A stretch of DNA of 64,000 nucleotides from Allacma fusca. Its lineage: Eukaryota > Arthropoda > Collembola > Symphypleona > Sminthuridae. Positions 4,721 to 62,799 of the stretch are shown here, in pieces. The DNA lies in NCBI GenBank assembly GCA_947179485.1, contig OX359245.1, forward strand, positions 23,547,067 through 23,611,066, in the 5' to 3' direction. A program made the translations under genes and the position numbers. Below the pieces are notes generated by a model. The model was not told where the DNA came from. It did no database searches and was given only the letters and a program-made list of their open reading frames with translations. Position 1 is the stretch's first letter. Each line of letters begins with the position of its first letter.

Positions 4721-6105
4721 TCACCTTCAGCACGCGTTGTTCTTTAGAATGGTGTTACTGTTAGTAATTAGCTTAAAGACTGGCCGAGTAAAGTGTACCC
4801 AACCATGATACCTCAAGCCAAGTCAAAAACATTAAATTCTGTGGAAATTCTAATTGTTAGAATTTTGGAGAAACGTCAGATGTTCTCCCTCAGCACGAGT
4901 TGCTCTTTCCATTGGAACTGCTGCTTAGTGATTAGGTTGAAGATTGGTCGAGTAAAGTGTACCCAACCATTAAACCTCAAGCCAAGTCAAAAATATTAAA
5001 TTCCACAAAAACTCTAATTAATGGAATTTTCCAATAACCTCCAATGTTAAATGTGAGCATTAGTTGTGTTTTCCATTGGTAAACCCCTGGTTCATTCGCT
5101 TGAAGATGGGCCGAGCTAGTGCATCTCATTTGTTCAAAACAGTCGAACCTGAACCTGAACCTGGACCCAAACTTTGGGTACCTCAAAAGTGTGAACCTGT
5201 ACCTGAAAATGTACCCATTTAACAGGTTAAAATATTTCGATCCTGAACCTGACCCAATTGCATTTTTGTAGTACCCGCACCTGATTAGTACCTGAACCCG
5301 AAAAAGTACCCAAAAGACGACCTGAACCCGGGTATTTTTGAACCGGACCTGAACATGTTTGGGTACTTGAGAATCCGAACTTTTTTAAAATTTTATCTTG
5401 TATTAAAGTAGAAATATTACAAAATATATTTAAAATGAATAAGAATGCAAGTTCTCTGGTTGCTGGGACACCCTGCCATTGCTTTTGCGATAGAAATCAT
5501 ATTGGAAGCTTGAAATTCTCCGGCCTTTAACCTTCAATTAATGAACCCAAACATTTCAGGTCTTTTGTGATCAGGTTCAGGTCTTTCATGTGTTACACCT
5601 GGTCCTGACAGGTAAAATCAAAACGGGTTTTTCTCTGTGCCTGGTCCTGAACCTGTACCCAATTTCACGGGTAAAAAATATTGTACCCAGAAAGGACCCA
5701 AACTTATTGGGTCCAAAATACTTGCACCCATACTGAACCTGAACCTGGACCTGAACCCAAATACCCGGGTGCGACCTGAACCCATGCGATGCACTAGGCC
5801 GAGCATACTGTACCCAAATATGATACCTTAAGCCAAGTCGAAAACATTAAATTCAACCGAAAATCTATTTATTAGAATTTACAGAAACCTCAGATGTTCA
5901 CCTCCAGCATGAGTTGCTCTTTTCATTGGTACTACTGCTTAGTGATTAGTTCGAAGATTGGCGGAGTAAAGTGTACCCAACTATGATACCTCAAACCAAG
6001 TCGAAAATATTAAATTCCGTGGAAATTCTAATTGTTGGAATTTTGGAGAAACCTCAGATATTTACCTTCAGCAGGAGTTGCTGGTTCCATTGGTACTACT
6101 GCGAG
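4680..6105. repeat. tandem satellite, ~165-bp unit, about 4.6 copies, split by a hAT element
   Basis: Diverged head-to-tail units share the blocks GTAAAGTGTACCCAAC, ATACCTCAAGCCAAGTC, CCTCAGATGTTCACC and TTCCATTGG. Full units begin near 4767, 4931, 5095 and 5943, with a partial unit before the first. The third unit is interrupted by the hAT element at 5117-5796; without it the spacing is regular. Confidence 0.85.
5117..5796. mobile_element. non-autonomous hAT element with GAACCTG stutter
   Basis: Both ends are visible. The left end reads TAGTGCATCTCATTTGTTCA and the inverted right end TAGTGCATCGCATGGGTTCA. The 680-bp body is flanked by the 8-bp duplication GGCCGAGC at 5109-5116 and 5797-5804, the length typical of hAT transposition. 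The interior has no transposase. Long stretches are the hexamer-like motif GAACCTG or GACCTGAACCC, stuttered on both strands. It lies inside one unit of the 165-bp satellite, and its removal restores that unit. Confidence 0.9.
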
Positions 6106-6712
6106 AGAAACTCACTGGGAGAGAATGCAAGAGAAAGAGAGGTTAAATAATTGTATAAAGGATTAAAGCAAAATTAAATTAAAAAATCATTTTACCGTAT
6201 GTTATTCTACGTTATTTTTACTAGGGTTGTGCTATTATTAGGCTATTGTATACAACTATTTACTGCTTTCCCTATTTAAATTTGTCTCGCTGAGCCAGCA
6301 ATTGCTTACTGTGCAGTGCGCGTTAATTGTAAGACTAACAAGTGGTTTCAAAAAGCTAGTTGGCAATTCATCATCAACAAATTATGGTACAACGATCCAG
6401 TCCACTAAAGTTCTCTTCCAAACTCAATATTTGGATATACACCAGGAATTTAACTAATCGCTTGATCAACTTAATACCAACCAACATTGTTATAAATCTT
6501 GCTGTTGAATCACTGTATGGTGCTTCACCCCTTAGTGGATCTTTGATTTTTTATGTTATTACAATTTGTATATATCTCAGTTGTACCGTAATAATGTAAC
6601 CGAAACCTCAGACACTGGACGCACTGATAATTTAAAATAGGAAAAGTGAAAGGAATTTATATTTGCGCAACATTTTTCCATTGCTATTGTTACTAAAGTC
6701 CATGGTTCCTAC
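6106..6712. other. no gene recognised
   Basis: Unique AT-rich DNA between the satellite and the next hAT element. A short 79-codon frame at 6360-6599 has no recognisable domain. Confidence 0.4.
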
Positions 6713-6720
6713 AAATCAAT

Positions 6721-7753
6721 CAGAGCTGTTTTCAAGTCCATGTCTGTCTTGGCTCATTCAAGTCAAGTCCCAAGTCCAAGCCATGTGCACGCAAATTTTG
6801 ACTTGAAATTTCAAGTAGGAGGGTCAATTCCGTAACGAAATTTGAACACGAACTCATGTTCAAGTCTATTCAAGTCCATGTTCTTCTAAAAGACTTGATA
6901 ACCAAGTCTATTTTATGTTCAAGTCAAACGACATGACGTGACTTGAGAAATGACTTGACTCCTCAAGTTCAATTCCCATGTCTAAACGAGCAGTTGACGT
7001 TTACTCACGTGTTGCAAATTCCTACAGAAATCGCACTCCCTACTGTCGTTGCAGTGATGGTTGCACATGTTTTAAATCTTTCCCAACCTGAGAAACATTG
7101 ACTAAGATTCGCATGAACCATCAAGGAGCCCTAAACCTTCGAGAAAGCGTTTTTTATTATACGTTTGTCTGTCGTTAAAAGTGTAGTGTTAGGATTGACA
7201 AACATTAATGGACAATTTAAGTGTCTTCAACTATAGTTCCAATGGAATTCTTGTTTTCAATGGAAACCGGTCTTTTAACCCAAAGGAGACTATCAAGAAT
7301 GATGGATGAAGCTATTCAGCTGTGCATGAAAATAGTTAGATGCATGGCTAAGATTAAAATCCCATTTGCAGCATTTTGATCAAGTTCGAGCTAAAAAAGT
7401 TTTAGGAGATACGGATGACTGAATTGCATAATATTTTTTAATACTCGTTAATATATTTAAACGTTATTTGGTACTTTGGTAATTTAATGATTAACAACAT
7501 GATTAAATACAACTTGATTGATCCCATGTTCAAGTCATGATCAAGTCACTTCATTTTAAACCACACATTCCAAGTCCTATTCATGTCCAAGTCATGTAAA
7601 AAATGACGTGAAGGGATCTGATTTGAAAATTCATGTTCAAGTCTCAAGTCAAAATATCAAGTCCAGGTTGAACATATTTTTGGACGTGATATTCAATTCC
7701 AAGTCAAGTCCATGGTCGGGTCAGCGTAAAGACATGACTTGAAAACAGCTCTG
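6721..7753. mobile_element. non-autonomous hAT element with CAAGTC stutter
   Basis: The termini are an 18-bp perfect inverted repeat, CAGAGCTGTTTTCAAGTC. The 1033-bp element is flanked by an exact AAATCAAT duplication at 6713-6720 and 7754-7761. The CAGAG start and 8-bp duplication are canonical for hAT. Both subterminal thirds (about 6735-6990 and 7515-7745) are stuttered CAAGTC, CAAGTCC and TCAAGTCA, with the reverse complement also present. A central stretch of about 500 bp is non-repetitive and non-coding. The termini are closely related to those of the 14112-15315 element. Confidence 0.95.
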
Positions 7754-7761
7754 AAATCAAT

Positions 7762-8170
7762 CCTTAATTCCTAATGATATTTTAGGGGATATAAAGACCA
7801 AATGTTTGGATGTATAAAGACTTGTAATTAAAAAATAGTGAGCAAATAACTTTAACTGTGAGCAATACAAATTCTGAGAATTTATCTGACGTTATATATA
7901 AAAACTGTTGCAATAAGTACGTTCAATTCCATTAGCTTTTTCCTAATAAGAATCCCACACTTATGTGTACAAAGTTCAGTCATTAAAATTCTCTTCTCCT
8001 CAAATTCGTCAGTGCTGTAATCGAACGTAGTTTTTCTCACTACCAGACTTAATTTAATCGAAATTTGATGATTTATGTCTAATGTTTATAATAATTATGA
8101 TTAGCGCTTTTAAGTGATAATCTAAAATTGCGTAATATTGCAAGCTTCCAGTATGCTGCAAGCAGTTGGT
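7762..8170. other. no gene recognised
   Basis: Unique AT-rich DNA between a hAT element and the foldback region. I see no domain or element ends. Confidence 0.4.
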
Positions 8171-8171
8171 A

Positions 8172-8262: not shown

Positions 8263-8292
8263 ACCTACTTGGCTATGTAGTGAAATAATATA

Positions 8293-8774: not shown

Positions 8775-8930
8775 AAGGTACTGGTTCTCTAGTCTAGTCG
8801 TTAATAGGAAGCGAAATGAATAGACTCGAATAGACTAGCGATATGCGAAGTTTAGAAGGACTAGACTAGAATAGACTAGTCAAGTAAGGAAAACACGTAG
8901 AATAGAATAGACTTGACTAGGAAAATATAC
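8775..8930. repeat. degenerate GAATAGACTAG array
   Basis: The motif GAATAGACTAG and its variants are stuttered about ten times on both strands. A second array of the same motif lies at 15510-15705 in the same orientation. I could not find inverted termini or a target duplication, so these are arrays rather than proven elements. Confidence 0.6.
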
Positions 8931-9269: not shown

Positions 9270-10125
9270 TTTAGCACTTTACCTAAGACTGGCTCAGTCC
9301 ATTTATAACTTTTTACAAGTATAGTATAGCTTTTTAAACAAAAATAAAAATATTGCCGTGTATGAAGACATTTTTTTACATTTACGTTTTAGGATCAAAT
9401 TTGCTTTAGTAGCTCCTTTTTAGTTTTGATAAAAGTTGGTACACATGCAATATATCAGTAGTAGATAACGAAACATTGGCAAACAATTTACAACGAATCT
9501 CTAGTTCCCGAGATATGAGTGGTCAAAGGTCACATTTGTTATTAAAGCATAATTTTTGGATTTAGCTAACAAAAACTAACCTGATCGTTAGAAATTGAAT
9601 ATCAACTTGGTGAGCATAATCTAATAGATATAACTTCAAAATAATTTTATCAGTAAAATTCAAGTCCGGAATTGGAAATTTTCGGTTCAGTTCAATTCAG
9701 TTCAGAATTTTGAATTGAACTGAATTGGAAAAAACTGAACTGAATTGAAAATCTAGTTTCCATTTAGTTCATCATGTGAATTGAAATGAAATGGAAAAAC
9801 TTAAATGAATTAAACCGTTTCGACCACTAGGTGAAACCGGTTGAAGATGGGTTTGCTTTAAAGCGAAAGAGCATATAATTCATTTGAGTTCTTCACCACG
9901 ACTAGACCACCCCGTTTATAACTATTTTTACAAGTATTTTATAGCTCTTTCAGCAAAAAGGTAAATATTACCACATGAACGGATGATTATTTAAGGTTAT
10001 CATTTGAGAACATGTTAACTTTCGTAGCTCCTCACTTATTTTGATAAAAATTGATACACATGCAATATTTCTGTAGCAAATTACGAAACTGAAAGAATTT
10101 TTGCCAGCAAATATCTAGTTTCAGT
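9270..10125. repeat. diverged direct duplication of about 240 bp
   Basis: The stretch from about 9270 to 9520 recurs at about 9889-10125. Shared blocks include TTTATAACT, TTTACAAGTAT, TAGTAGCTCC or CGTAGCTCC, TTTTGATAAAA and TACACATGCAATAT. The copies are well diverged. A degenerate GGTTCAGTTCAATTC array lies between them. The ends of a parent element are not visible. Confidence 0.6.
9661..9835. repeat. degenerate TTCAGTTCAATTC array, one hAT-like end
   Basis: The motif TTCAGTTCAATTCAGTTC and its complement are stuttered over about 170 bp. The right end, read in reverse, is TAGTGGTCGAAACGG, closely matching the TAGTGGTCGGAACG terminus of the element at 61700-62791. The left end and target duplication could not be found, so it may be a truncated relative. 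Confidence 0.55.
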
Positions 10126-11612: not shown

Positions 11613-12023
11613 CCAGGATCCAGGGTTGAAAATTGGAATTGGAATCGAAAAAGAAACCGAAAATTTAAAGTATTAGAATCGGAATCGGAATAAAAAATAC
11701 TGTAATATTAGGTATTGGAATTCTAATCGGAATTGGAAAGTAAGTATCGGTATTGGTATTAGAATTTAATGATATTCCGATAAATTCCAATTCCATTTCT
11801 GATATTGCATTATACAGCCATAAAGAGTCCTTTACGACCAAATATAAAGTACCTTTACATTTTACACTTCCACATGGTTTTTTGCGCAAATAGTTTTGTA
11901 TCGTAGTAATAAAAATGGAAAGAAAGCCAGAATCATTTGTTCATGATTACTAGGACTACAATAGAAACCTATATATACAACAAAAAATGAAATACATGTT
12001 CCAACGTATTCTGTGGAACAATT

Positions 12024-13828
12024 ACCCTACTAGCACAACTGGGTCGGGAAGGCGCGGGAACGACGCAAGCTGTTTGCACTGGTCAGACGCACGGTTTGGC
12101 CAAGTTTCCCGATCATTATAATGCGCACAAGTTGTCACGCTCATTTTGCGCCAGTTTTTATTTCTTCACCAGTTATAGGCAAACACTCGCGTACCACTGG
12201 AAGCGTCGTTTTGAAAGAATGTATATCCTCATCCTTATAATTGCACTGAGCTATAAATGAGTCGGCTAGGCTATCACATATTCCTTTAAAGTTACTTACA
12301 ATATTATCATTATCATTCAATGCGTCAATTTGCATCCTAGGGTTACTCTCTTTACCACATAGTTTATCAATTACCTTCCAAATGCCCTGGCTCGTGTTGT
12401 TTAGGTACAGTTCATTATTAAATTGCAAAATTGTTGATATTTAGGTAGACAAAATTTACCAGTTTGCCCTGGTGAGAGTGATTCCTGTGTGTAGTAGGAA
12501 TATAGGGCAAACAACATTCCGTAACAGCGTCATTTGGTAGAATACATACAGCGACTGTTTCTGTTGTACTCACACAGGCAACACAAGACCACAGGTCTAG
12601 ATTTATAGATCTGTATGTTTTTAGACTTAGTTTCATACAGGTGTGGTGATATAATAATTTGCAGCCATAACATTTCAGAAACAAAACCCTAGTTCTAATT
12701 TTTGTTTGACAACAGGCACATGTATGAGAAGCCAAAACCATGGCTAAGCAATAATAAGTGCGAACGTCAAGACACTTACACTGTAAGGATAGGGAGTATA
12801 AGAATGGGGAAGGAAAAAACACTGCACTAAGGGGCTGGGAGTAGACTCAAAAAAGAAAATGCCTGGACCTTGTCCAGGAGTAGAATAAATGAAGTGGAAA
12901 GCATGGAATTCCTGATTTGTCTATGCTTGAGACTGCTCGCTGAAAAATCTTAAGTGTTTTCGGATCCTCTAATATCTTTTCGGTAGAAATTAGTTTGGTG
13001 ATCCCGAACTCTAAATCAATCAAAATATTGAAAACTGTTAAATATGTGACTACAGCAAGATACTTAAACACGTATTCTCATTTCCGCAAGTGCAACATCA
13101 TATATATCTGAGGCACTTATATTGATGTCATGATCTAAGCAAAACGACATTCTGTAGATAAATGGTGAATATATAATTTGATTATCCTAAAGTAAAAAGT
13201 AAAAACCTAACCATACTATGTGTGATTTTGAAGCAATACATATCCATCAAACAACACTCACTTGGGCGGATGATGGAATTGTGGATTGATTTGGAGTTCC
13301 TGCAACTTCTTCAGAGGACAATTGGGATAAGTGGCTAATAGTCTGGTCAAAAGGAGGCTATGGTTACTTATAAAAATAAGAACAATAAACCTGGACACTA
13401 CTTCTCGTTTGGCCGTCGTTTCTCCTTCCGCGAGTCAGCCTCCATCCAGTCCGACTGCAATTCCGAGTTATCATGCAGCACAATTATTTTTAACATACCA
13501 TTATTTTATTCCGGAAATATGATTGATGATACTATTAAGTGCTTCGTATTAATGACATGTTTTTTTGTTGACTCTCTAATTTATTATGTGACTCTAATGC
13601 CGAAAGTTTGTTTGAAGAATATGCGCCGATTTTGCGATATTTTATCCTCTTGTGTAAATGAGCTGTAAAACCGGTGCTATATTGATGCAAAACGATGTCA
13701 TGATAATTGGCGCAAATTTTTGTGCGATTAACATGCGCTGGTTATGTGCATAGCTTCCTGCCTATGCACGTTTCCGACACCCAGGTCATGGAAAATGCGC
13801 TGGGTCTAGTTTCTTGTGCTAGTAGGGT
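12024..13828. mobile_element. TIR element flanked by TA (Tc1/mariner-like ends)
   Basis: A 16-bp perfect inverted repeat TACCCTACTAGCACAA occurs at 12023-12038 and 13814-13829. If TA is the target duplication, the element termini are CCCTACTAGCACAA, consistent with Tc1/mariner-type integration, though no transposase is present. Its body contains a deleted CR1 copy. The superfamily call rests only on the TA flanks. A larger, non-TA duplication was not found. Confidence 0.6.
12141..12891 (-). pseudogene. internally deleted CR1-like LINE copy
   Basis: On the minus strand, from 12891 down, the sequence shows the same 5' leader as the copy at 21.5-25 kb (CTCCTGGACAAGG, then CTACTCCCAGCCCCTT). It continues into a PHD finger beginning CACCQTK, with a YHHTC core and a WSCVAC end. 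The frame reaches VYLNINNF, the start of the endonuclease, and then jumps at about 12420 to the region just before the RT (ELYLNNTSQGIWKV). The endonuclease, over 1 kb in the longer copy, is thus deleted. It stops near 12141, before the RT. It lies inside the 12024-13828 element. Confidence 0.75.
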
Positions 13829-14111
13829 ATGAACCGCACAAAGAAACAAATGAATTAATTTTTCAAGTGGTGAACTGATTCCGAAAGTTCTGAAATTCTC
13901 AGCAAGTAAAATCTGTAATCTTGAGCATTCCAGCAACTTGTTACTGTGTTAAGACTTTTCTCTGCACCGTTTAATTTAAAACTATAACCTAGGTTGACTA
14001 CCGGAGGAATCCCTGCAAATCATGTTGTTTGTTCGAGTAAACAAACAGTATAAATGACGTGGTCGATTGACTTAAAAATGACAAAAATAACAATAAATTG
14101 TAAGTTACATG

Positions 14112-15315
14112 CAGAGCTGCGTTCAAGTTCAAGTATAACTTGAAGAGTTCAAGTGCGTATCAAGTTCAAGTCAAGTGCAGACAATTTTGGAACTTGAAAC
14201 TTGAACAAGTTCAAGTGAAATTATAATTTTAACTTGAATTTTCAAGTTCAAGTTCGATCAAGTCTAAGTTAATAATTTAATACTTGATAACAAAATCAAG
14301 TCAAGTTCAAGTACACTGAATGGAAGTACTTGAATAAAACTTGAGTATTTGGTATAACTTGGGTTTTTTGTCACTGAATGGAAGCATTGCGGAATTATTG
14401 GCATCTTTGCATCTCACTAAAAATAATATCGAATGCGAATCATCATAATAATATCTTTGAGTTTGTTTTTATTCCATCGGCATTAAAGTGGCCTCCACGA
14501 AGCTAAGTGGTCGAGATCGAGAATATTTCTTGTGTCCTGTTTCCACACTTTGAATAATTAAAAGTCCCGACTTGTTGTTTTCTAAGGATGTTCTTGATAC
14601 TCGGTGTTCTTGTTCCATTATAAAAATGAAGTGATTGTTTAGTTCAGATGTTCTGAAGCTAAGAAGAAGTTTAAGAGAAATTTTATTATTCCCTGTAAAA
14701 ATGATTTTTGCTGATATTAAAGATGATGGAGCAGATGAACAACAATCTTATAAATAAACATTGGTTAAGCAAAATTAACGACGAGAAATATTCATGATTA
14801 TAACTACTGTTTACACTAACCACATTCACGATTGCAACATAATGTGAACAGGTCGATGATATGATTGCTAACCTGTTAATTATAGAAACTAATCAATTAG
14901 ACTACAATGCTTACAGTTATTTGATAATGTATTTTAAACTTTAATTTTAAGGTAAAGAATTTCGTCCGCATGCTGTTTAGTTTATCCTAATTATGGCCTA
15001 ACCATACCATTATCAGCTATAATATATAATTGTGGACGAATTTCTAGTAATGTTTATTCATCTACGAAAAAAATATTTGAATAATCAAGTTCAAGTACAA
15101 GTTCAAGTCAAGTTATGTGTCCAACTTGAACGTCAAGTTCTAATCAAGTTCAAGTTCTACAAATTAACTTGAAAAACGTGTACTTGAATACTCAAGTGGC
15201 TTGAGAAACTTGGTTCATCAAGTACAAGTGCGAATACCTCAATTAGACAATTTTTCAAGCTCAAGTCAAATTCAAGTCAAGTTATCTAAAATAACTTGAC
15301 TTGAACGCAGCTTTG
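14112..15315. mobile_element. non-autonomous hAT element with CAAGTT stutter, nested
   Basis: The left end CAGAGCTGCGTTCAAGTT and inverted right end CAAAGCTGCGTTCAAGTC define 1204 bp flanked by an exact GTTACATG duplication at 14104-14111 and 15316-15323. Subterminal DNA (14120-14350 and 15085-15300) is stuttered CAAGTTCAAGT. The centre is unique, AT-rich and non-coding. The ends are sisters of the 6721-7753 element. It sits inside the older 11621-15488 insertion, so it is younger. Confidence 0.95.
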
Positions 15316-15509
15316 GTTACATGCACAGAATCGGAATTGGAATCGGAATTATTTAAAAGTATTTGAATTAATTGGTATCGGAATTCAAAATTAATTATTT
15401 GGATACATCGGAATCGGAATCTAAATTAAATTTGAACAGGTATTGTAATTGGAATCGGAATTTTTATTTTTCCGATATTTCATCCCTGCCAGGATCATAG
15501 GGTTGCTTT

Positions 15510-15705
15510 TAGTTTGAGGCTTGAATAGAAATTGAATAGGAATAGGAACTGACTAGGAGTAGACTAGGAATAGACTAGGAATTTTAAGAAAATGTGTGAA
15601 TAGGACTAGACTTGACTAGCGCAAAGAAATTTGCAGAAGAATAGACTAGAACTGAATAGACAACGGCAATCCTCCGAAAAAATAGAATAGATTAGGCCAC
15701 CTCGT
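15510..15705. repeat. degenerate GAATAGACTAGG array
   Basis: The motif GAATAGACTAGGA and its variants are stuttered about twelve times just outside the 11621-15488 element. It is in the same orientation as the array at 8775-8930. Termini are not resolved. Confidence 0.6.
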
Positions 15706-25018: not shown

Positions 25019-25406
25019 CAGGGGTAGGATTTTTGTAAATCTCCCTGAAAAATTATTTCTGAAATTCCCTGCTGAATCAAATGACCCTGGTGGAAGGTCC
25101 TCAGCAATTTCAAAAATCCCTGCTGAAATAAACGTCAACGATTTTCAAAATATCTGTTGGAAAAAACATTTTCATTTGCAAGTCGTCATCCAGTCCGTCA
25201 AATCCAAGTCAAATAAGATCAAATAATCTAAAAATCCTTGTTTGCCTCACAAATTTCCCCGAAACAAATTTGAAAATCCTTGCCAAAAAATGAAATTTAA
25301 AAACCCTGTTCGCAAAACAGAATCCCTTTTCGTTGAGATTTTCCCTCCCGGAAATTTTTGTCCTTGGGACAAATCTTCCCGTCTTTCCACAAAAATCCGA
25401 CCCTTG
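25019..25406. mobile_element. short hAT element with AATCCCTGCTGAAA stutter
   Basis: The left end CAGGGGTAGGATTTTTGTAA and inverted right end CAAGGGTCGGATTTTTGTGG define 388 bp. The flanks TTTTCTTC (25011-25018) and TTTTCCTC (25407-25414) match at seven of eight positions. The interior is stuttered AAATCCCTGCTGAA and similar. The termini are related to those of the larger element at 44787-47215. It lies just downstream of the DUF4806-like frame (minus sense). Confidence 0.8.
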
Positions 25407-30939: not shown

Positions 30940-31863
30940 CATACTTGCAGCCGTTCAGTTCATAAGGTTGTGAACTGAACTGAACTAGCCCTTATTTTCA
31001 ATGTTTTTGAATGAACTTGAACGAACTAGTTAAATACAAAATTATGATTGAATGAACTTGAATTGAACTCAGCAGAACTTATTATGAATGTGAACGAACG
31101 TTCATCGTACGTTCAAGTAACACAAACTGAACTGAATTGAACTTAAGAGTCGAGGTTGAATATAAACTTTTCTATTCGTGAACGCAACACGAATATCAAC
31201 TATGTATGTATCTATAAACTGCATGAACATATATGTATTTTATAGTTGTAATCGCAAAAGCTAACACGCTGGCTTTTGACTATTAATTTGAATGACCTTA
31301 AATTACAAATCAAAAAAATAGTTATTTACAAGCAAGCTGGTTTCTTATATGTATTTAATAACGCATTTATTTGGCATATTTCGGGCGAAATCGTATGAGT
31401 TAAAACGCGCAATAATTGTAAGCATATTTACATGATTTACTAACTTGTTTACCAGAAAGCTCAAAATTAATACTGCTTTCACAACGCAAGTGTTTTGAAA
31501 GCAGTAATTTAATAAACAATTTAGCCAAAAATAGTTTTTTAGTTAAAGTTCAAAGTCAGTTACAAAAATCGAACTAAATGTCACTTAAATATATCATAAA
31601 TGACTTGAACTAATTGGCTCGCTAATGACAGATAAATTGAACTGAACTGAACGACCGAAAAGTATATTATGAATTGAATTGAACTTTGAAAAAATACTGC
31701 CAGGATGAACTGAACTGAACGTAACTACTGGAAAGTACGCAGTGAATTGAACTGAACTACGACAGGATTTTAACAAGGGGAACTGAACTTAACTGAACGG
31801 CACGAAAAATTTGGGGATGTGAATGGAACTGAATTTGAACTTTGGACCAAAACTGCAAGTATG
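30940..31863. mobile_element. non-autonomous hAT-like element with GAACTGAACT stutter
   Basis: Left end CATACTTGCAGCCGTTCAG and inverted right end CATACTTGCAGTTTTGGTCC (11 bp perfect) define 924 bp, flanked by an exact GGTTAAAG duplication at 30932-30939 and 31864-31871. Both subterminal parts (30952-31200 and 31610-31855) are stuttered GAACTGAACTGAA, with unique AT-rich DNA in the centre. The CATAC start is not the usual CAGNG, but the 8-bp duplication and architecture fit hAT. Removing it and one copy of the duplication leaves ORF2 in frame. Confidence 0.92.
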
Positions 31864-31871
31864 GGTTAAAG

Positions 31872-44769: not shown

Positions 44770-44957
44770 TCCATTCAGGTCCTGGACAGGCGTCGGATTT
44801 TTTAAATCTCCCTGGAAGATTTTTTTCATTTTCCCTGCTGTTCATGATGTCCCTGTTTGAAGCAAGTTTAAAACTCCCTGTTGACAAACTAATTTTCGTA
44901 ATACACCCCAACAAATTCAAAAATCACTGCTGAAAAAAGGTCAACAAATATGAAAAT
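44770..44957. repeat. long direct repeat, copy 1
   Basis: These 188 bp recur at 46793-46969, with an 11-bp difference and few substitutions. The repeat begins in CR1 sequence (TCCATTCAGG), crosses the hAT left end and ends in TGAAAAT. Between the two copies lies a 5'-truncated LINE, so the pair is best read as a very long target-site duplication. Confidence 0.85.
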
Positions 44958-46792
44958 AATATTATAATAATAGTTTATTCAGGTCGATATATGGCCTCAG
45001 CCAAAACAACCTCACATTCGTTTTACAAGTAGACTGCGTATAGTAATTATTAGTTGAAAAGTATGTATAAAGCCTGGCGTTTTTTCACAAAATATGTACA
45101 TATATAGAACCACAGAGTGGTTTTAAGGTTAGGTAATTTACAAAGTATATTGTAGAATCAAAGGTTGCTAACAAATTTAGTGGTTTATTCCCTGCCAGTT
45201 TTTCGGATTTTGTTGTTCAATGAAAAATCGGGCGTGACCCGTGTCCTCATCGCATCGTCGCAAAGTCCGTATTGTCAGTTGTCTTCTGCCCCGCATGGTT
45301 AATGTCAACAAAGTGACCAGACGAATGAAGGCACGGACTTTAGTACAATTCGCTGGCGAAAAGATGAAATTCACTTCCACTTACTTAAACTGTCTTATTG
45401 ATTACAGAGTTAACATACACGGAATACTGGAATCCTAAATTTGGATGATGTCCAACAAAGCACACCACTTGCAACCTAACAGTAGTAATTACATTTCATT
45501 TTAGTCTTCTTCCATACATTCGTAGAATTAATTTCGTGTTCTTTGGATATTGCACCAGAAGTAGTATATACTCATACAATTCTCTCTCGTCATTTCAGTT
45601 CTAAAAATAATATTTATAAAATTATCTCTGTTTACATTGATCTGCTTGTATGCAGAGAGAAAGCTTGTTTGCGATGCTCTGTAGTGTACGCATACAAACA
45701 CGACATGGAACAAGTCTTCGATCTCATTTTGGTTACATAATTCACATTTGCAGCATTTTCCCTCACTCTTCCAAATGTTCCACATCCCATTTAAGGTTAA
45801 ATTTCCCCCTAGTGTACTGTACACCCTTGGTACGTTAGCTCTTATAGTTTTTATTAATCTGATTACGCTCCACTTTAGATTCAACTTGTAAAAGAAACTA
45901 GTTTCACTTGTTTTAATTTTTTAGTTGTATAAAACTCTTGGTTGTTTCTCAGCCTGTCATATCTATGGTTATTAGCGATAGGGTGTATTTTTCAATGATT
46001 GCTTTGTAGTTTTTGTGCAAATATTCTGCTTTTATTTGTGCAAATTCTGCAGTTAAACCTGACCTTTCAAATTGACCTTTTAATTTAATCTTCCAATCAT
46101 ACTTCACGGTTTTGTTTCTGTACCACATTTCCTTATAACTAATTTTACATAGGGACTCATCTGGTTTGTTTATACTTCTCTGTAGAAAGGTAATTATTGC
46201 TGTAAAGAGTGCCCGTTTTACATTTGATATCTCAGTCTCAAGCCTTAGCAGATAACCCGGTACTAGATTTGTGGTGTTTAGAATTTTTTTAAGGAATTTC
46301 GTCTAAAGTTGTTCTATTTCGTCTTCATAATTGAGAGCCCAGATAGGACAGCAGTATATTAATACAGAGTATACAAGTGTGTTAAACAGGTTGGATATAA
46401 TATTAGAGATTTTGCTCTTATATATTACGTGCAGCAGTTGCGTTTCCGCTGACTTTGCTTTCAAAGAAGTGAGCCTTTGCTGTATAGTACGTTCCATTGT
46501 AAGGGAAAGGGACTCCTAAGTATTTGTAGGAGTTTTTAATTTCAATAGGCTCATCTCTCCAATATATTTATATATTTTGGGACAACTTGTGCCCCTTTCG
46601 AAATACCATTACTTTAGTTTTGCTAAGGTTTAATTTCAAGAAATTACTTTCAAAAAAGCTCTTTAGTGTTTTTATATGTTTTTGTAGCTCACATTGCGTT
46701 GTGGCTACTAGCACCATATCATCTGCATACATGAGTATTACAATATCCTGAGCATTAATTTAATACCTGTTACTTTACTATCCTTTAGAATT
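44958..46792 (-). mobile_element. 5'-truncated LINE (R1/I-like RT C-terminus)
   Basis: On the minus strand the element starts inside its RT: YADDMVLV with the catalytic pair at about 46718-46729, then NLSKTKVMVFRKG and YKYLGV-like sequence. MERTIQQRLTSLKAKSAETQ and LVYSVLIYCCPIWALNYEDE follow. Near 45.6 kb comes a C-terminal zinc-type stretch CKCELCNQNEIEDLFHVVFVC. It ends in an AT-rich TTATTATAATATTATTTT tail at 44958. Shifts and stops interrupt it. The clade is uncertain (R1, LOA or I group). It lies between the two long direct repeats. Confidence 0.7.
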
Positions 46793-46969
46793 TCCATTCA
46801 GGTCCTGGACAGGCGTCTGATTTTTTAAATCTCCCTGGAAGATTTTTTTCCTTTTCCCTGCTGTTCATGATGTCCCTGTTTAAAACTCCCTGTTGACAAA
46901 CTAATTTTCGTAATACACCCCAACAAAATCAAAAATCCCTGTTGAAAAAAGGTCAACAAATTTGAAAAT
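46793..46969. repeat. long direct repeat, copy 2
   Basis: The partner of 44770-44957. After it, the hAT element continues toward its right end, while after copy 1 the LINE tail starts. That is the arrangement expected when a LINE inserts with a long staggered cut. Confidence 0.85.
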
Positions 46970-48140
46970 CCCTGCGTACAAAAATGTTTTTCGTAAATCA
47001 CCTCAGCAATTTCAAAAATCCCTGTTGAGAAAAATCATTTTCTGTAAAACACCTCAACAATTTCAAAAATAAATTGTTTTCAATAAAACACCCTGCCAAA
47101 AAAAGGTTAACAGATTTGAAAATCCGTTTGCAATCCCTTTTGAAAATTTCGCTGCTGAAAGATAATTCTCCCTGGGAAGATTCTTCCCGGTCTTTTCACC
47201 GAATTCCAATCCCAGGTCCTGGAATTCCTGTGAGAGTGTATTATTTAAAAATATTCTAAATCGTCGGTTTTGTAAATAGTCACATAAACTCATTAATAGC
47301 CTATCATTACATTTAAAGTTAGCAAGTTTTTTACGAAGTTAAAGTATCCTCGAGATAGAATTGAACGCTTTCCGCAGGTCAATAAATACTGCAAGCACTT
47401 TGACTACATGGATGCCTAGATACGAGCATATTTTATGTAAAAAGACAAGGACAGCAGTAATACAGGAACGACCACGACGAGAACCATGTTGGTTTTCATC
47501 CAACTGTTTATCACAAACCGTTAGAAGACGTAAGTAGGTAGTAAAGTACTTTTTCAAGTACCTTATTAAGGAATGGCAGACCATGAATAGGGCGGAAACA
47601 ATCAGGGCTTAGAGTTCTGCATTTACCTTTGTAAATAGATGTAATCACTGTTTTGAAGTTTTGTCGTAATTTATATGTATATAAGATAAGGTTAAGAAGT
47701 AACAAAACAGGGCTTACCAAAGCAGCCTTACAGAAAATTTCACGATTTATAATGTCATGCTTATTAGAATTGTGGCTTAGACTATAGACGTTATGCCAAA
47801 TTTCCTTAGCAGAATTAGGGTCTCATACAACATTAGCGTTCAGATTATTCTTAAAATCCAGTAAGTCATTATCAGTGTAGTCACATGGAACCGTCAAAGA
47901 TGATGCTAGAGAACTACATATTTCTTCAAAGTTACTTATAATGTTGTTATCAGTGCTGAGTTTATCAATTCAAGTACCTACATGCCTTTTGTGAACCATA
48001 ACTTCATCGAATACTCTCCAAATACCATTTGTTGACATATTTCTATTGATTTGCAAACTGAAATAATTCTTTCATTACATATATGTCGTTTTTAAGAGTT
48101 TCTCTTAGTTGTCTGAACACGATAACATAGGTTTTAGTTA

Positions 48141-50896: not shown

Positions 50897-53540
50897 CCAT
50901 GGCCATGGAGACAATGGATAGGTAAAAATATGCCAAATTTACAAGCATGGGTTGCATTTCCATGGAATACCCATGGAATGGCTACCCATTGAATACCCAT
51001 GGAATGGCTACCCATTGGGTAGCTACACATGGAATACCCATGGAATTTCTGCCCATGGAATACCCATGGACTGGCTGACCATGGAACAACCATGAAATGG
51101 ATACCCATTGAACATCCATGAAAACGATACCCTTGGAATATCCATGAAAGGCCACCCATGGAATCCGCATGGAATGGCTATCCATGGAATACCCATGGAA
51201 TGTCAGCCCATGGAATACCCATGGAATACCCATGGAATGTCAGCCCATGGAATACCCATGGAATGTCAGCCCATGGAATACCCATGGAATGTCAGCCCAT
51301 GGAATACCCATGGAATACCCATGAAATGGCTGCCCATGCAGTGCCCATGGAAGGTCTGCCTATGGATTGTCCATGGAATACCCATGGAATGGCTGCCCAT
51401 GTAATACCCTTGGAATGACTGCCCATGTAATACCCTTGCAATGACTGCCCATGGAATACCCTTGGAATGGCTGCCCAAGGAATACCTACGGAATAGCTGC
51501 CCATTGAATACACATGGAATAGCTGCCCATGGAATACCCATTGAAGTACTCTTAAGGAAAATTTAAACCTGAGCATTTAAAGGACACTCATATATACATA
51601 GGTTTAGACATTTTCTCTCTTCTAGTTTGGTAAAACTGCACTCTGTGTGAAGTGCGTTTATTCCGATCTTTTTGTTTGATTAGGCAGTATAAAGACATGC
51701 TCAAGAGTATTTAATTTTCAGGTGTTGTATATATATTTGGTATCGCATCCGAGAATGTTGCCACCATATTTTTCCTCTCACTTGCTTGTACATAGGCACA
51801 ATAAGCGCATTTCAGATATCGGGCACTTTACGTTTCACAGATTTGAGTTAACTGTCACAGCCGCAGTCCAACGACACCACCATGGTATGCAGTTGACCAG
51901 GCTTACCAGTATTAAAGGTATTCGTGAGTTCGTTTACACATACACAGAATTACTTTGAGATAGAACTTTTGAATGTTTTCAATCTCGCAATAAACTCTTT
52001 ATTAGTTTCGCACTTTAGATTTGCATGCTGGGATATTCGTTTTGTCACAAAAGAAAGTATACACAAATAGCTATACAATGCATGTAATATTATTTATAAA
52101 ACACCGCATCTTATGGCAAGCTTGTATGTAGATTTTCTAAACTTTGTTGTTGGTTTCATATCAAGTTTTAAATTGGCATAGTATGTCAGCTCAGCTAAAT
52201 TCACAAATTGAAATTTAGACAAATTTGTCTCACTTTTGAACTAACGCCATTTCCAGAAACCATTACTACAACAGCCGTTTTCTGCAATTGTGTTAGTGAC
52301 CTGCATGGGGATACCTATGATTTCTTCAGGTGATAATAGGCTTCCAGGCAATGTCATTGAAGTCTAGTGTATACATGCCTTGAGCCCTACTTTCGTATTT
52401 ATACATTTTCTCAAAACGTATCTTCGTCTTCGCCAATGGGTCAATAATTTTTGATTCGTTTGCCCTTGCTGCCAATTTTCGTTGCACGTTAATTTTGCGA
52501 GGAGTCTCAGTATTTATATAAATGCCTTTCAGAGCCGGTTTGTTTTTATCAGAAACTAGCAGTGAGTGTCGTAACTTTTCTCCGAGCATAGGAAAGGGTG
52601 ACTCTGATTGGTCTGGATTTTCCGATAAATTTCTTTCCCATTCGCCTCACATTGTCAATATTTACTTTTTTATTTTTCCATTTTTTAAAGGCCTCTTGAA
52701 TATCTTCAGGTAATTACTCCAAAAATAGCTAAATTTTTCATTCCCCTTCATTGCATGAATTCTAGGCAGGTCTCCAATGCATCAATTTTTTGTTGGTGTT
52801 CTGTTAATTTCTGATTTATAGCGATATCCTGTTTATAAGATACTCCTTCCACCAATAATTTGTCAACAGTCAGTGGAGAATCAAAACATGCCACCATAAA
52901 GGGGATCCAACCCCGTGCAAACCCCATATAGAATCTACACTGTGTATATACAAAGTCCTTAATCGAGTATAATTATCGGTCTTGATCTCCAAAAATCTCA
53001 CCTGTAAATTAATATAATCAATACCAAAACACACATGGAATTGGCCACGTGTAGCCATTCCATAATAAGTCATTCCATGTGCAATCAATATGTAGCCAAT
53101 CCATGGGAAACCGATGGGCGATCATTCCATGGGTATTCCATTGGCTGCGATTCCACGGGTGTTCCATGGGCCGCCATTCCTTGGGTATTCCTTGGGTATT
53201 CCATGGGCAGCCATTTCATGGGTATTCCATGGGTAGCAATTCCGTGGGTATTCCATGGGTAGCAATTCCGTGGGTATTCCATGGGTAGCAATTCCGTTGG
53301 TATTCCATGGGTAGCAATTCCGTGGGTATTCCATGGGTAGCAATTCCGTGGGTATTGCATGGGCCGGCATTCCATGTAATTTCCATGGGTAGACATTCCA
53401 AGGGAATTCCATGGGCAGCCATTTCATGTTCAACTATTTCATGGGTATTTCATTGACATGGAATCCATGGTTGCAAATTGGCATCTTTTCACCATTCACC
53501 GGTCTGCATGGCTATTTCGTTTTTCCATGGATTTTCGCAA
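50897..53540. mobile_element. putative TIR element with long CATGGAATACC arrays
   Basis: A left array at about 50940-51545 (CATGGAATACC and CATGGAATGGC units) faces an inverted array at about 53035-53450. Outside them lie related inverted ends: left GGAGACAATGGATAGG and ATATGCCAAATTTACAAGC, right (inverted) GCAGACCGGTGAATGG and AGATGCCAATTTGCAACC. The 1.4-kb centre is unique and shows no transposase. Flanks CATGGCCA and CATGGCTA match at seven of eight, but the sequence is CATGG-rich, so this may be coincidence. It is likely a hAT-type stutter element. Confidence 0.6.
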
Positions 53541-53589: not shown

Positions 53590-53904
53590 ACAATTGATGA
53601 TTACTTCAAAAACAAAATGAATTCTTAATTAAATTATTAACGATTAAATTGCGTATAACTACTAGTTAATAATTACGATTCACGATTACTTTAAAAATAT
53701 TTTTCATTGATGACTACGATTAACGATTATTTTCAAAAATCATTTAATTGTCGATTACATTAACGATTATATTTTTAAAACAATTATATAATTGTCGATT
53801 ATAATTTACAATTCTATTTTTTAAACAATTATATAATTGTCGATTATAATTTACAATTCTATTTTTTAAACAAATTTATATTATTGTCGATTATATCTAC
53901 CGAT
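53590..53904. repeat. degenerate AACGATTA/ATAATTGTCGATTATAAT array (left arm)
   Basis: AT-rich units such as CGATTATAATTTACAATTC and TTTTTTAAACAATTATATA are repeated, with the last units nearly identical. Reverse-complemented, they resemble the 42-bp units at 54931-55218, so the two arrays are inverted arms around the CAAGT-type stretch between them. Confidence 0.6.
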
Positions 53905-54930
53905 CAGTCAAGTAAATCCCAAACTTGACCCTGAACTTGACTTGAACCTGACAGTCAAGTAGGTTTTTCAGGCGGTCTTGACGGTTAATGGTCAGAAAAT
54001 TACTTTAAAATTCAGGGTCAAGTATTCAAGTACTTTTTGCTGAACTTGAACCTGGTCAAGTATTGGAACAACTCTTGACTTGACCATGACCCGAACGTGA
54101 ACTTGATTTGAAGTGTCAAATCTTTTTCAAAATACATAGAAATAAAAAAAATATTATTCACACTTACAATACAGTAAGTTATAAGTACTAATTTTATTGT
54201 GATTTTTATTTGCGGAACACTAAATAATTAATATGATGAAATGCTCGTGACGTTAATTACTGCGTACAATTAATCAACAAAAGCAGCAAATAACAATAAT
54301 ATTCACAATTCACAAGCTTCGTAAAACAATTAGGTTTACTATTTCAGTTCGAAGCTTTTTGGTCTTCGTATTTTAGTTTTAGCCAACCTTAAGAAACTGC
54401 GAATAGTCTGCGAAGCTAGAAAGTCTTTTAGGGGCAAGTAAATCAATTCCCATTAGATTTTACTTCTAATGATTACCTAAAATTCAAGCTTGGATCGCTT
54501 CACAGAAAATCGCCAAAGTTGAGCGTCCGCTCTTTTAATGAATAATCTGGCTTATGCATAGTGCAGCTATCAGAATGTGCAAATGTTAAATGCTTAAGAA
54601 GAAATAGTGGAGATATTGAATTGTAACATAAAAATATGAGTTTAGACTAGACGATCATGCACGGATATGGAATCCCGGAGTAGCGACGACGACATTTTGA
54701 AAGAAAACTTCTATTGATATACATGACACCACAACTTTGATATGCGTAACATTTCGTTACTTGAATAAGTGTTTGAAATACTAATGGTTCATGGTCAAGG
54801 ATTTAAAACTTTTTACTTGACCATGAACATGTCTTGAATCTCAAGTAAAACCTTTTGTCTTGCTCATGATAGCTACTTGACTCCAAATCTCAGGATCAAG
54901 TATACAAATAACTTGACCATGCCTTGACTG
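53905..54930. repeat. CAAGT stutter region, probable hAT relative
   Basis: The ends CAGTCAAG (53905) and inverted CAGTCAAG (54923-54930) enclose subterminal CAAGT, CTTGACCTGAACTTGA and similar stutters at 53905-54125 and 54780-54930, with a unique AT-rich centre. The immediate 8-bp flanks (CTACCGAT and TTATCTTT) do not match, so the boundaries or the element status are unproven. Confidence 0.5.
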
Positions 54931-55218
54931 TTATCTTTTTTAAAATATGCAATTGTTCATTATAATTAACGGTTATCTTTTTAAAAATATGCAATTGTTC
55001 ATTATAATTAACGGTTATCTTTTTAAAAATATGAAATTGTTCATTATAATTAACGGTTATCTTTTTAAAAATATGCAATTGTTCATTATAATTAACGGTT
55101 ATATTTTTAAAAATATGCAATTGTTCATTATAATTAACGGTTATATTTTTAAAAATATGCAATTGTTCATTATAATTAACGGTTATATTTTTAAAAATAT
55201 GCAATTGTTCATTATAAT
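54931..55218. repeat. tandem repeat, 42-bp unit, seven copies
   Basis: Units start at 54931, 54973, 55015, 55057, 55099, 55141 and 55183 and contain TTTTTAAAAATATGCAATTG and TTCATTATAATTAACGGTTA. They are nearly identical. Because 42 is a multiple of three, both strands show artificial open frames of repeated 14-residue peptides, which are not genes. Confidence 0.95.
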
Positions 55219-58420: not shown

Positions 58421-58429
58421 AATACATTA

Positions 58430-59793: not shown

Positions 59794-59801
59794 GTCACAA
59801 C

Positions 59802-60806
59802 CAGGCGCGTAGCCAGTAATTGGCCCAGGGGGGCAACATTAATTAGAACGTACATATGTAAACTGGCACATTCTATGCGAAATCCAATTCAGGAATGTAA
59901 AACTCATCAAATTCTGCAGACTGAATTTCAGATTTTAAAATTCTCCACGTTTTACGATTCCATGAAATTTGAACAATTTTGGACCAGATTTTTAATTGGG
60001 CTTGATCCGATTTCGGAGAATTTCGAGACCTGGGTTCGCTTCTATCGTTTCAGCTGGTGCTTAACCTACTGTTCCTGTGACACACGTCTTTACTTCGAAA
60101 AAAACTGCGGATATCAGGCGTGCTTGACCTTTTCATAATGAAGAATTAAATACAATTCACTAATTTAATAATTCTATCCAGCTTAAAAATTACCTCGAAG
60201 TGATGCGTGTAAGATACAGAAGCTAAAAGCTTTTAATATGAAAATATTTAAAGCCGCTGTTACGATACTTTTTTGCCGTTGAAGGTTGAAGTCAAATCGA
60301 CGAGGCAAAGGTCAAAATGAAATCGGGATTTCGCAATGCATTCAAATCAACCGCTAAGCAAGGATGGACACAATAAAAATATACTCTAGAATCACCCAAA
60401 ACGTCTCTTTACTGAATGTTTTATTACCCACGTCTTCTTCCCATCAAAAGTTGACCCATCCATACTCGCGAAAATCGTATCGAAATGCTTTTCCATTTTG
60501 ATAGAAATTTATTGATCTAGAAATCCTTGGCTCTCGCAATGGACAACATTTCGATACGATTTTCGCGCGTATGGATGGGTCAATTAATGACGGGAGGAGC
60601 CGTGGGTAATAAATCATTCACACGAAACATACAAACTTCATGGGTGATTCTAGAGTTATGCTGTTTATACACAGATATTTACATGGAATACTAAAAATTG
60701 TACTGTCAAATCACTAAAAAGGTTTGCATGTCTCGGTACTTTTTGAGTGATTTGAGAGTATTTTATTTCGAATGGGGGGCTATTTCCCCCTTTGGCTACG
60801 CGCCTG
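59802..60806. mobile_element. non-autonomous hAT element, CAGGCGCGTAGCCA termini
   Basis: The left end CAGGCGCGTAGCCAGTAAT and inverted right end CAGGCGCGTAGCCAAAGGG define 1005 bp flanked by an exact GTCACAAC duplication at 59794-59801 and 60807-60814. A G-run follows each terminus. Similar CAGGxGCGTAGCCA termini are, as I recall, widespread among animal hAT MITEs. The interior is non-coding and is interrupted by the MITE at 60383-60656. Confidence 0.95.
60383..60656. mobile_element. 274-bp foldback MITE, nested
   Basis: ACTCTAGAATCACCCA at the left is perfectly inverted at the right. Similarity continues for about 100 bp in each arm, including TTTATTACCCACG, GACCCATCCATAC and CGCGAAAATCGTATCGAAATG. 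The flanks are TAT on both sides, consistent with a TA-type duplication. It lies inside the 59802-60806 hAT element. Confidence 0.85.
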
Positions 60807-60814
60807 GTCACAAC

Positions 60815-61690
60815 GAATTGTCCTTGTTGTTGGAATCCCGCGTTTAACATGCTTAAAATGATCTTTGAAATGCGACAGGTTCGTCCATGCTTTAATTTGG
60901 CTGTGCTCTTGACGAAGTTATAGTTTTTCAGCTTTACTTTATTCCATCTTACACCAGCTTCCTGTTGAACAACAAATGTTAGTTAAAATCAAAAATGAAA
61001 TTTATTTTTAGCCAATGGATTACTTGCTTAGAAACCAAACATCTTTTCAAGTGGCTGAAGAAGTGTGGAATCTAATATTAAAGATGATGTTATTTTTGAA
61101 GATAAGGTGCTGTAAGCTAGTTCTAAGTACCACAGCAGAAACTATTCCACTTATTACTATTAATATTATTGGTCAAGAATCAATTTACAAATATTCGTTT
61201 TCATCCCCGACACTGGATTACCATGACAATATTACAAACGATCAAAGCACAAGCCAGGTCATCAACAATAAATTCAACATTACATCATTACATCTTAGTG
61301 CTTATTCCATAGTACATTCCTTCGTAAAGTTTAAAGGGGATTTCATATCTTAATGTGAAGTTCAGAGTATAATGTCACTAGGCAAATGCATTTAATCTAT
61401 TACAGCTGTGGAGAAATTGTCTACAATGTGTTTCGTAACCCATGCATTTTATAGACATAAACATCGATACTCAAAATGTTATCATGTTATTGACGTTTTT
61501 ATTACATAAATATCCAGTACAATAAAAGTCCAAAAAAGAAAGCGCGTTCAGCATAAAATCCCTTAAAGATGAGCGTCGCGACGAGCAAAACAAGCCAGCA
61601 ATTGAAAAAGCTCTTTCGATATGTACACTGCTTGCCCGTATTGAGAGTTAATAATTGGTAAACTAATTTCGAATGATGTTCCTTCCTGGC
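60815..61690. other. no gene recognised
   Basis: AT-rich DNA with a 112-codon frame at 61015-61353 that shows no recognisable domain. Confidence 0.4.
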
Positions 61691-61699
61691 ATCTCCAGA

Positions 61700-62791
61700 T
61701 AGTGGTCGGAACGATTCAGTTCGGTCCAGGATTTTTCGATTCGATTCAGTTAGGACACTGGACTGAACCGAAAATTGTTTTCCGGATCGGCTCATTAAAA
61801 AACGGTTCAGTTCGATTCGGTTACACCGAAGGGACTAAATCGAATCGAAAACCGTTTGCCTTTCGTGGATATTTAAATCTTAAGTTTTCGTCATTTCAAT
61901 TTTCCATTAGTGAGTTGTTACCTGCGAACTGCATTTTCAGCGTATGTCAGTGTAAATTATTATTTGTTTTATCAGCACAGTGCCATTTTGGATTGTCGTG
62001 ACTCAGAAATCAAAAAATACTAAACCATTTTTAAGTTTTCAAAAATGGACATCTCTAACTTTCAATGGGTACATAAAAATCTACGTACGCTTGAAAAAAT
62101 ATATGTCCACGTCTTTGTAGGAGTGTGACAGGTAGGACTTTGATTTATCTGTAAAATAATTTTGGCTTAAAAAATCAATACTTTTATTAGAAAGGAAAAC
62201 AATTGATTATAGCAACAATTCACCGATTTCGATGACAACGTGACGACGTTTAACATAACCCATAAAGTTTCCGGAACTTAGAACGTCCGACAAATCTTAT
62301 TTCAAATTCCTAATTTTAAATCCAAGTTTGTTTCTGATCCGATTTTCACCGAAGTCGATCAATAGCAGGTAAAATCTATTTAAGCCAAATTTAAAGCATA
62401 TAGGCGATAGCTTATGCAAACTCCGAATGGTTTATTTACCATAAATAATAAATTTTAAGCAATGGTCTCCCTTTAATTAGTATGACAGCAATCCCAAACT
62501 TATACAAATTGAATAATTACCTCTAAAATTAATTAACGTAGATGGATGTTGTATAAATAAATGTTTGTAGTACACTCACTTCCTGTTTAAGTGTTGTGAA
62601 ATGTGGGGACACACAAATATTTGCTCAAAAAAACCTTTTGGACTGCAGTCCACGAAAAACGATTCAATTTGGTCCAACATTGTGGATTGAATCGTTCGGT
62701 TCAATCCACCAATTGAGGATTGAATCGAAAAAATCGTGAATCGGACTGAATCGAAAATTTTTGGTTCCGGACTGAAACCGTCCGATCACTA
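61700..62791. mobile_element. non-autonomous hAT element with GGTTCAGTTCGATT stutter
   Basis: The left end TAGTGGTCGGAACGATTCAG and inverted right end TAGTGATCGGACGGTTTCAG define 1092 bp flanked by an exact TCTCCAGA duplication at 61692-61699 and 62792-62799. Subterminal parts (61715-61860 and 62655-62785) are stuttered GGTTCAGTTCGATTC and GATTGAATCG. The centre is unique and non-coding. The termini match the right end of the array at 9661-9835. Confidence 0.95.
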
Positions 62792-62799
62792 TCTCCAGA

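Follow-up and report, generated by a model that had tools for sequence, protein, structure and literature searches.

The Ac/Ds elements of maize carry subterminal AAACGG sites and favour T at position 2 and A at position 7 of their targets, the nTnnnnAn preference of Ac-type hAT elements. hAT elements with subterminal repeats, and their non-autonomous derivatives, are an already known kind of transposon. Here we describe such elements in a 64,000-bp stretch of the Allacma fusca genome (contig OX359245.1, positions 23,547,067 to 23,611,066; hereafter the window), which is part of a 393-Mb, 91-contig assembly that also served as the genome searched. As in Ac/Ds, an autonomous and a Ds-like element with common subterminal repeats can be paired, although motif and lineage differ. 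We propose, at a probability of roughly 0.8, that the window holds non-autonomous hAT elements whose ends carry subterminal repeats of a 5–7-bp word read by the BED zinc finger of their own transposase lineage; the most likely function of the arrays is that of putative subterminal transposase-binding repeats.

Hermes of Musca domestica has a BED site, AAG(T/C), in 17 + 14 copies (PMC10368747, cited, like the other papers here, from excerpts). It resembles the elements described here, which we name by their first coordinate, in having many short copies towards hAT tips and in that the orientation of its outer sites differs between the ends; the CAAGT core of 6721 and 14112 includes AAGT. Unlike the Hermes site, the words here are 5–7 bp long and family-specific, form tandem arrays at some loci, are known from sequence alone, and can be denser, with 37 copies of one 6-mer in 500 bp of 14112 ends. 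Tgf2 has subterminal repeats at both ends (17 and 18 copies), described as a defining hAT feature, and the excerpted text mentions neither tandem expansion nor a strand rule (PMC4890040). In having such repeats at both ends, Tgf2 and Tol2 resemble the elements described here. Galileo, of the P superfamily, includes a copy with ends lengthened by internal direct tandem repeats, but it has THAP rather than BED, and its units are ~140 bp long, lie ~1.7 kb from the tip and are not site-sized (PMC4168063). Coral piggyBac-type miniature inverted-repeat transposable elements (MITEs) are, from the part of the report cited, not a match (PMC2872659).

An earlier note on the window had listed nine hAT insertions, and inverted tips with 8-bp duplications are seen at all nine of its coordinates. 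They are given below in window coordinates (TSD, target-site duplication; LINE, long interspersed nuclear element), together with one interval of flanking DNA.

5117..5796, + strand: non-autonomous hAT element; TSD GGCCGAGC; tips TAGTGCATC; arrays of core ACCTG (ACCTGAACCTG) at both ends
6721..7753, + strand: Ds-like internal-deletion hAT derivative; TSD AAATCAAT; tips CAGAGCTGTTTTC; arrays of core YCAAGTC
11621..15488, + strand: older hAT element; TSD CCAGGATC; GGAATCGGAAT words in both ends
14112..15315, + strand: non-autonomous hAT element nested in 11621; TSD GTTACATG; tips CAGAGCTGCG/CAAAGCTGCG; CAAGTT arrays
25019..25406, + strand: short hAT-like element of the same family as 46810-47215; TSD 7/8; AAAATCCCTG words
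30940..31863, + strand: non-autonomous hAT element; TSD GGTTAAAG; tips CATACTTGCAG; GAACT arrays
44770..46809, no strand: 188-bp duplicate of flank and element left end, then LINE-like DNA; outside the hAT element proper
46810..47215, + strand: 406-bp hAT-like copy inside the 44787-47215 of the earlier note; TSD GTCCTGGA
59802..60806, + strand: hAT-like element; TSD GTCACAAC; tips CAGGCGCGTAGCC; no motif array
61700..62791, + strand: non-autonomous hAT element; TSD TCTCCAGA; tips TAGTGRTCGG; GATTC words as inverted repeats

Eight of the duplications read as perfect and one, at 25019, as 7/8 (TTTTCTTC/TTTTCCTC), as had been claimed. A scan of the window for perfect 8-bp duplications around inverted 12-bp tips matching at ≥10/12 found 8 pairs, 5 of them at ≥11/12, compared with 30 and 1, respectively, summed over 30 block shuffles; reversed-sequence runs preserve structure and hence are not a control. 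Seven of the eight pairs are elements of the earlier note and the remaining pair lies inside the 14112 array; 25019 (duplication 7/8) and 44787 (weak tips) fall below the cut. The short terminal inverted repeats of hAT elements are thus present, weakly for 44787/46810, as is the 8-bp duplication, which recurs in two elements elsewhere in the genome (L091+L079 and L065, below). The insertion at 44787-47215 has inverted ends and the 8-bp duplication but is not a single 2.4-kb element: it is a composite in which a 188-bp direct duplication (44770-44957 and 46793-46969, 91% identical) surrounds LINE-like DNA, and the element proper is the 406 bp at 46810-47215, which bears GTCCTGGA, the duplication read for 44787, and can be aligned with 25019-25406. 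The 188-bp duplicate comprises flank and left end and is unusually long for a target-site duplication. Besides the nested 14112 element, 11621..15488 contains a reading frame that is weakly PHD-like (20.1 bits, below the cut-off of 24). The 30940 element interrupts a LINE reverse-transcriptase reading frame (window 28837-33326).

For each insertion, we took the two 250-bp ends (or half-lengths), counted their commonest 6-mer and set the count against 500 dinucleotide shuffles, uncorrected for multiple testing. The count exceeds the shuffle maximum in 5117 (14 vs 8), 6721 (22 vs 8), 14112 (37 vs 16) and 30940 (18 vs 11), all of which thereby show the Hermes-type arrangement, with a short motif repeated many times in the subterminal DNA of both ends. 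The arrangement is weaker in 11621 (outer count 11, P≤0.020) and 61700 (count 10, P≤0.036), and by this test is not beyond shuffles in 25019 (P 0.79), 44787 (0.80) or 59802 (0.83), so that the repeated subterminal motif claimed for most of the set holds for six elements and not for three. The candidate BED-site words across families are CAAGTC, CAAGTT, ACCTGA and GAACTGAACT. They are not different in each element, as the earlier note had it: 6721 and 14112 have the CAAGT core in common, and 25019 and 44787 are one family. When the left ends of 6721 and 14112 are aligned, 27/122 motif columns mismatch versus 60/111 elsewhere.

All six families searched in the genome have many copies, contrary to the outcome that was to speak against the proposal. 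With at most 40 first-look candidates scored per family, first-look candidates and matches listed number 59 and 44 for 6721, 1307 and 42 for 5117, 940 and 101 for 14112, 417 and 46 for 30940, and 368 and 88 for 61700; for 46810 (999 candidates, 40 scored, 47 matches) the long matches besides the window copy are 76–84% identical. Of 30 loci fetched for 6721, 27 are full length, with the duplication perfect in 25 and 7/8 in 2 (window copy included); the 30 loci of 5117, again with the window copy, have it at 8/8 in 27 and 7/8 in 2, and one (L056) fails at that register. Both families show the nTnnnnAn-type target bias as a preference (T at 2 in 19/25 and A at 7 in 18/25 for 6721), weaker in 5117 (17/27 and 14/27). 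Two pairs of loci, L058/L059 and L015/L021, have TSDs in common and resemble recent duplicates. A copy 100% identical to 30940-31863 lies about 120 kb away in the opposite orientation (G000:C1:23457624-23458547), which points to very recent movement or duplication. In a long 61700 copy (L086), no transposase was recognisable by eye in the interior.

We aligned the copies of 6721 and 5117 and the left end of 30940 after collapsing identical elements (24/27, 26/30 and 19/21 kept, 20 copies of 30940 having been fetched) and scored motif columns within the subterminal 240 bp. A private variant, found in one copy, is mostly post-insertional, whereas a shared variant, found in two or more, has mostly been inherited through mobilisation. 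Shared variants occupy 1/122 motif columns versus 38/358 elsewhere in 6721, 0/113 versus 21/367 in 5117 and 0/47 versus 23/193 in 30940, whereas private substitutions number 8 in 122 versus 26 in 358, 4 in 113 versus 22 in 367 and 6 in 47 versus 47 in 193, respectively. The interaction of shared against private is significant for 6721 and 5117 pooled (Fisher P 0.001) and for 6721 alone (0.008), and excluding CpG columns hardly alters the picture. Because the motif mask comes from the consensus, we simulated neutral evolution along the tree of each family, all sites changing at an even rate, and built the mask anew in every run; a shared depletion as strong as the observed one arose in 0/4000 (6721), 34/4000 (5117) and 90/4000 (30940) runs (Fisher-combined P 8e-6), after 0, 2 and 6 in a first set of 400, in which the private depletion was reached in 174, 74 and 21. 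The look-alike word ACATG in 6721 is not spared (0.135 of columns vs 0.008 for ACTTG), and with the cores fixed in advance, the site widens to YCAAGTC in 6721 and stays at ACCTG in 5117 and GAACT in 30940. As anticipated, each of the three aligned families conserves the array among its copies. Because shared variants avoid motif columns while private ones do so less or not at all, the motif was retained during element spread. This pattern is what should be expected of transposase-binding sites needed for movement.

Two families have a BED-domain partner transposase that lies with their tip and motif. A search of the genome for hAT dimerisation domains gave 860 candidates, of which 150 were scored, and two matches lie 3.2 kb downstream of 6721-type left ends. 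One belongs to a 3846-bp element (L065) with the tips of 6721, CAAGTC arrays at both ends and the duplication CAACATAC, which is less telling in that its flank is a tandem repeat. It encodes both the BED finger and the C-terminal dimerisation domain expected of a hAT transposase (intron-split zf-BED PF02892, 23.4 bits, cut-off 20.6; PF05699, 43.6 bits, cut-off 21.4). Positions 1-470 of 6721 match 75-554 of L065 at 91% and 487-1033 match 3313-3920 at 79%, the Ds-like structure of common ends and deleted interior, and the alignment indicates that 6721 is an internal-deletion derivative of L065. It retains most of the last transposase exon, which qualifies the earlier statement that most of the insertions lack transposase.

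An inner exon of L065 (1434-1775), named catalytic by eye, received no hAT domain from Pfam. A genome search with it gave six long matches at ≥91%, 4/6 adjoining 6721 left ends, followed by a tail from 71% down; two of the six are interrupted by stops, at C9:33875163 (one) and C8:9633556 (two), and a partial match listed at C35:80551 has one. Four sequences of the tail were read (L114, L115, L116 with L118, and L117). In L116 with L118, the 14112 tip CAGAGCTGCGTTCAAGTTCAAG and an array lie ~1.5 kb upstream of the inner exon with BED exons between, the latter identified by eye across a join that spans 19 unread bases, and with the left end only read. This left end is 88% identical over 145 bp to a 14112-family copy (L061), the inner exon is 64% identical to that of L065, and 14112 and this partner differ less within CAAGT (2/66 vs 13/59 and 0/35 vs 13/46). 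L115 bears CAAGTT words, L114 has no clear array, and L117 has TCGGGT/TCAGGT words with the tip CAGAGCTG. At L117:180-450, a tip of the 6721 class, CAGAGCTG, accompanies words with the core of ACCTGA, the word of 5117, whose own tips differ; L117 suggests that words may change while tips stay. CAAGTC, CAAGTT or TC[AG]GGT accompany BED fingers that share 23–31 of 53 residues, too few cases for a code.

For the other families no partner was found. An outward-orientation scan for window tips in 20 chosen downstream flanks of the 150 scored transposases gave none; one match to the 30940 tip pattern, 126 bp into L069, was taken as chance. Arrays of other words were seen by eye in 8/20 flanks (L069, L070, L071, L074, L079, L081, L084 and L085; 16/20 read, without a shuffle control), with a further doubtful one in L082; the words include TGAAGG, GTAGTG, GAGTAAGTA, GTGAG/ATGAGCG and AACCGTT. 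L091+L079 is a 1692-bp element with the duplication ATTAATAC and AGTAAG arrays. At L087:340-590, an isolated end with a CAAGT array and a CAGTGCTG-like tip lies upstream of a transposase with GTAGTG words in its downstream flank. A further hAT transposase of the genome, L093, has 12 matches, and the five of these with names are all from arthropods.

We propose that the N-terminal BED zinc finger of each lineage's transposase reads the word, that copies losing sites would be mobilised less, so that the word is kept in spread while spacers drift, and that transposase lineages may have shifted to different words, each reading its own elements. Neighbouring sites would in turn offer homologies at which polymerase or exchange could misalign, copying a site-to-site unit in tandem, and by such copying some loci could reach an array of 300–560 bp. 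The earlier idea of amplified binding sites diverging by family is supported by array conservation, the two transposase partners and the shared-against-private test, and is limited by a motif that is not always private, by an element that lacks an array and by the restriction of partners to two families.

Several observations weigh against this proposal. The 59802 element has a TSD and tips yet no array in the 6-mer shuffle test. Partners exist for two families only, one of them by its left end alone, and comparison of the 6721 consensus with the single autonomous copy, which takes in private changes, shows no motif depletion (2/80 vs 5/188; 6/70 vs 13/198). Taken by itself, 5117 yields no significant interaction of shared against private (P 0.084), and private changes, too, are fewer in motif columns of 5117 and 30940 (74/400 and 21/400 simulations at or below the observed level). 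The 30940 result depends on register, TGAAC giving 3 shared variants in 63 columns versus 20 in 177, which is not a depletion, and the copies sampled are best-scoring loci rather than random ones. For Hermes, mutation of left-end sites left about 70% activity and the authors call auxiliary transposase binding inside the ends unlikely (excerpts of PMC10368747), so that extra sites may matter little.

The best-surviving rival, which we nevertheless regard as unlikely, is that slippage or gap repair at self-similar ends produced the arrays incidentally, with nothing reading them and chance alone preserving them. Tandem growth does occur: four 14112-family copies (L061–L064), picked from the 14112 search (40/940 candidates scored) for repeated subterminal pieces, have tandem expansions of motif-bearing units, at the left end in L061 (36 bp x 15.5) and L064 (37 bp x 8.3) and at the right end in L062 (12 bp x 43.5) and L063 (11 bp x 43), the last two with 83 and 80 CAAGT on a single strand. 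The three expanded copies with both ends in the stretch have perfect duplications (CTCTTGTT, CAATTGAC and GTGTGAGA); the left tip of L063 lies outside the fetched stretch. The left unit spans the interval between successive TCAAGTTCAAGT pairs, which misalignment between sites would explain. Galileo ends likewise grow in tandem, and gap-repair slippage is named as a source of defective copies in the portion of that report cited (PMC4168063). Slippage alone is rejected, however, since shared variants avoid motif columns more than private ones in three families, a similar word that lacks the core is not spared, the autonomous partners also have the array, and the identical word stands at both ends of an element. 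Slippage, offered earlier as an alternative, is not a true one: it, or unequal exchange, may be what lengthens the arrays, with the sites themselves retained by selection for mobility.

Somewhat less probable again is that the word is the site of a host protein, such as a transcription or silencing factor, that favours spread. Constraint alone cannot tell which protein reads the word, and host proteins derived from hAT elements are known, with diverse motifs (PMC8097297, in part). Against this, the commonest 6-mer crowds both ends and is missing from the middle of 5117, 6721 and 14112 (it occurs there twice in 30940), the words differ among transposase lineages, and hAT transposases are known to bind such repeats (excerpts of PMC10368747 and PMC4890040). 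The poorest of the three accounts, gene-conversion homogenisation of copies or array units, could draw on the repetitiveness of the arrays and on duplicate-like loci such as L058/L059 and L015/L021, but conversion between copies should also erase shared variants in spacers, which 6721 keeps a few bases away, and identical elements were collapsed before counting.

Copies of the words do lie on both strands, as had been noted, but one strand dominates in most elements, and the dominant strand is the same at both ends in 9/10 sequences (core chosen per sequence). The ten include relatives (6721 with L065 and 14112, and 46810 with 25019) and so are not independent. Counts on the + and - strands are, left then right, as follows.

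30940, GAACT: 10/1, 13/0
L091+L079, AGTAA: 13/2, 16/2
6721, CAAGT: 10/4, 9/2
L065, CAAGT: 10/5, 10/1
14112, CAAGT: 14/8, 14/6
5117, ACCTG: 10/1, 6/4
11621, GGAAT: 6/3, 9/0
46810, CCCTG: 6/0, 3/0
25019, as 46810: 4/0, 1/0 (too few to judge)

The exception is 61700, which is inverted (GATTC 4/1 left, 1/4 right), and the CCATGGAATACC arrays (50.9-53.5 kb), whose class is unproven, also run counter to the rule in being inverted. Because they are same-strand at both ends, the sites are mostly not inverted repeats, and each end has opposite polarity with respect to its tip. Hermes sites are antisense at the left end and sense at the right (PMC10368747, in part); this would equal the same-strand layout here provided that reading starts at the tip of the end concerned, a reading implied by the numbering and unstated in the excerpted text. 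A narrow literature search found nothing on same-strand layout across hAT families.

Site spacing adds a possible helical component. Pooled same-strand distances of 13–60 bp (eight sequences, 238 distances), scanned for periods of 4 to 16 bp, peak at 5.25 bp, with 6.0 second; the scan is post hoc and the distances are not independent. When sites were jittered by up to 8 bp, the 5.25 value was reached in 0/1000 runs and the 10.5 value in 55/1000. The best single period is 5.2–5.3 in 5/9 sequences (5117, 14112, 30940, L079 and L117, the last tied with 5.85) and not in L065 (6721), 11621, 46810 or L115. The commonest short steps are 6 bp in 5117 and 14112, 5 in 30940, 4/7/11 in L079 and 5/6/11 in L117, and 30940, despite its 5-bp step, scores -0.24 at period 5.0 and 0.75 at 5.2. 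Spacing by half a helical turn (5.25 bp) is probable in some families; a mix of 5- and 6-bp steps, since decayed, would be the alternative. More tentatively, and with odds we would put somewhat below even, the ends may be directional, helically phased rails, with one-strand sites in half-turn steps whether the unit is 5, 6 or 11 bp, a word for each lineage, length change by unit misalignment, and a fast-evolving lock and key separating co-resident families. If so, the two ends would show opposite polarity to the transpososome and could not be swapped.

Further arrays lie in the window outside the nine insertions. At 50960-51545 and 53095-53423, CCATGGAATACCCATGGAATGG arrays in opposite orientation, ~1.5 kb apart, look like a further element; a search of the CCATGGAATACC arrays at 50.9-53.5 kb that required a TSD of ≥7/8 and a tip match of ≥8/14 yielded no tips. 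A 1-kb stretch at 53905-54930 has CAAGT-type arrays at both ends and CAGTCAAG-like tips without a matching duplication, and sits between 42–45-bp tandem arrays (53730-53895 and 54930-55218). Short arrays of GAATAGACTAG-type words at 8790-8920 and 15523-15582 are perhaps solo ends of another family, and a one-sided GTTCAGTTCAATTC array at 9660-9830, closing on CGACCACTA, resembles a lone 61700-type end.

Beyond the known kind of element, these data provide a case, made from sequence alone, that words are kept in spread, and two word-transposase pairings. They also show sites lying mostly on one strand, phasing by half-turns that is probable for some families, and site-bearing units expanded in tandem. 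hAT elements are widespread, and the need for long repeat-filled ends is unsettled even for Hermes. In Allacma fusca, several families that use different words live side by side, with near-identical copies and with at least two transposases identified, so that word, strand, spacing and site number can be varied within one system. The shared-against-private test outlines a candidate binding footprint from an assembly alone and is usable on other young MITE families. Half-turn phasing, if true, would constrain how transposase multimers load on an end, and the expansions illustrate how a transposon end can turn into satellite-like DNA.

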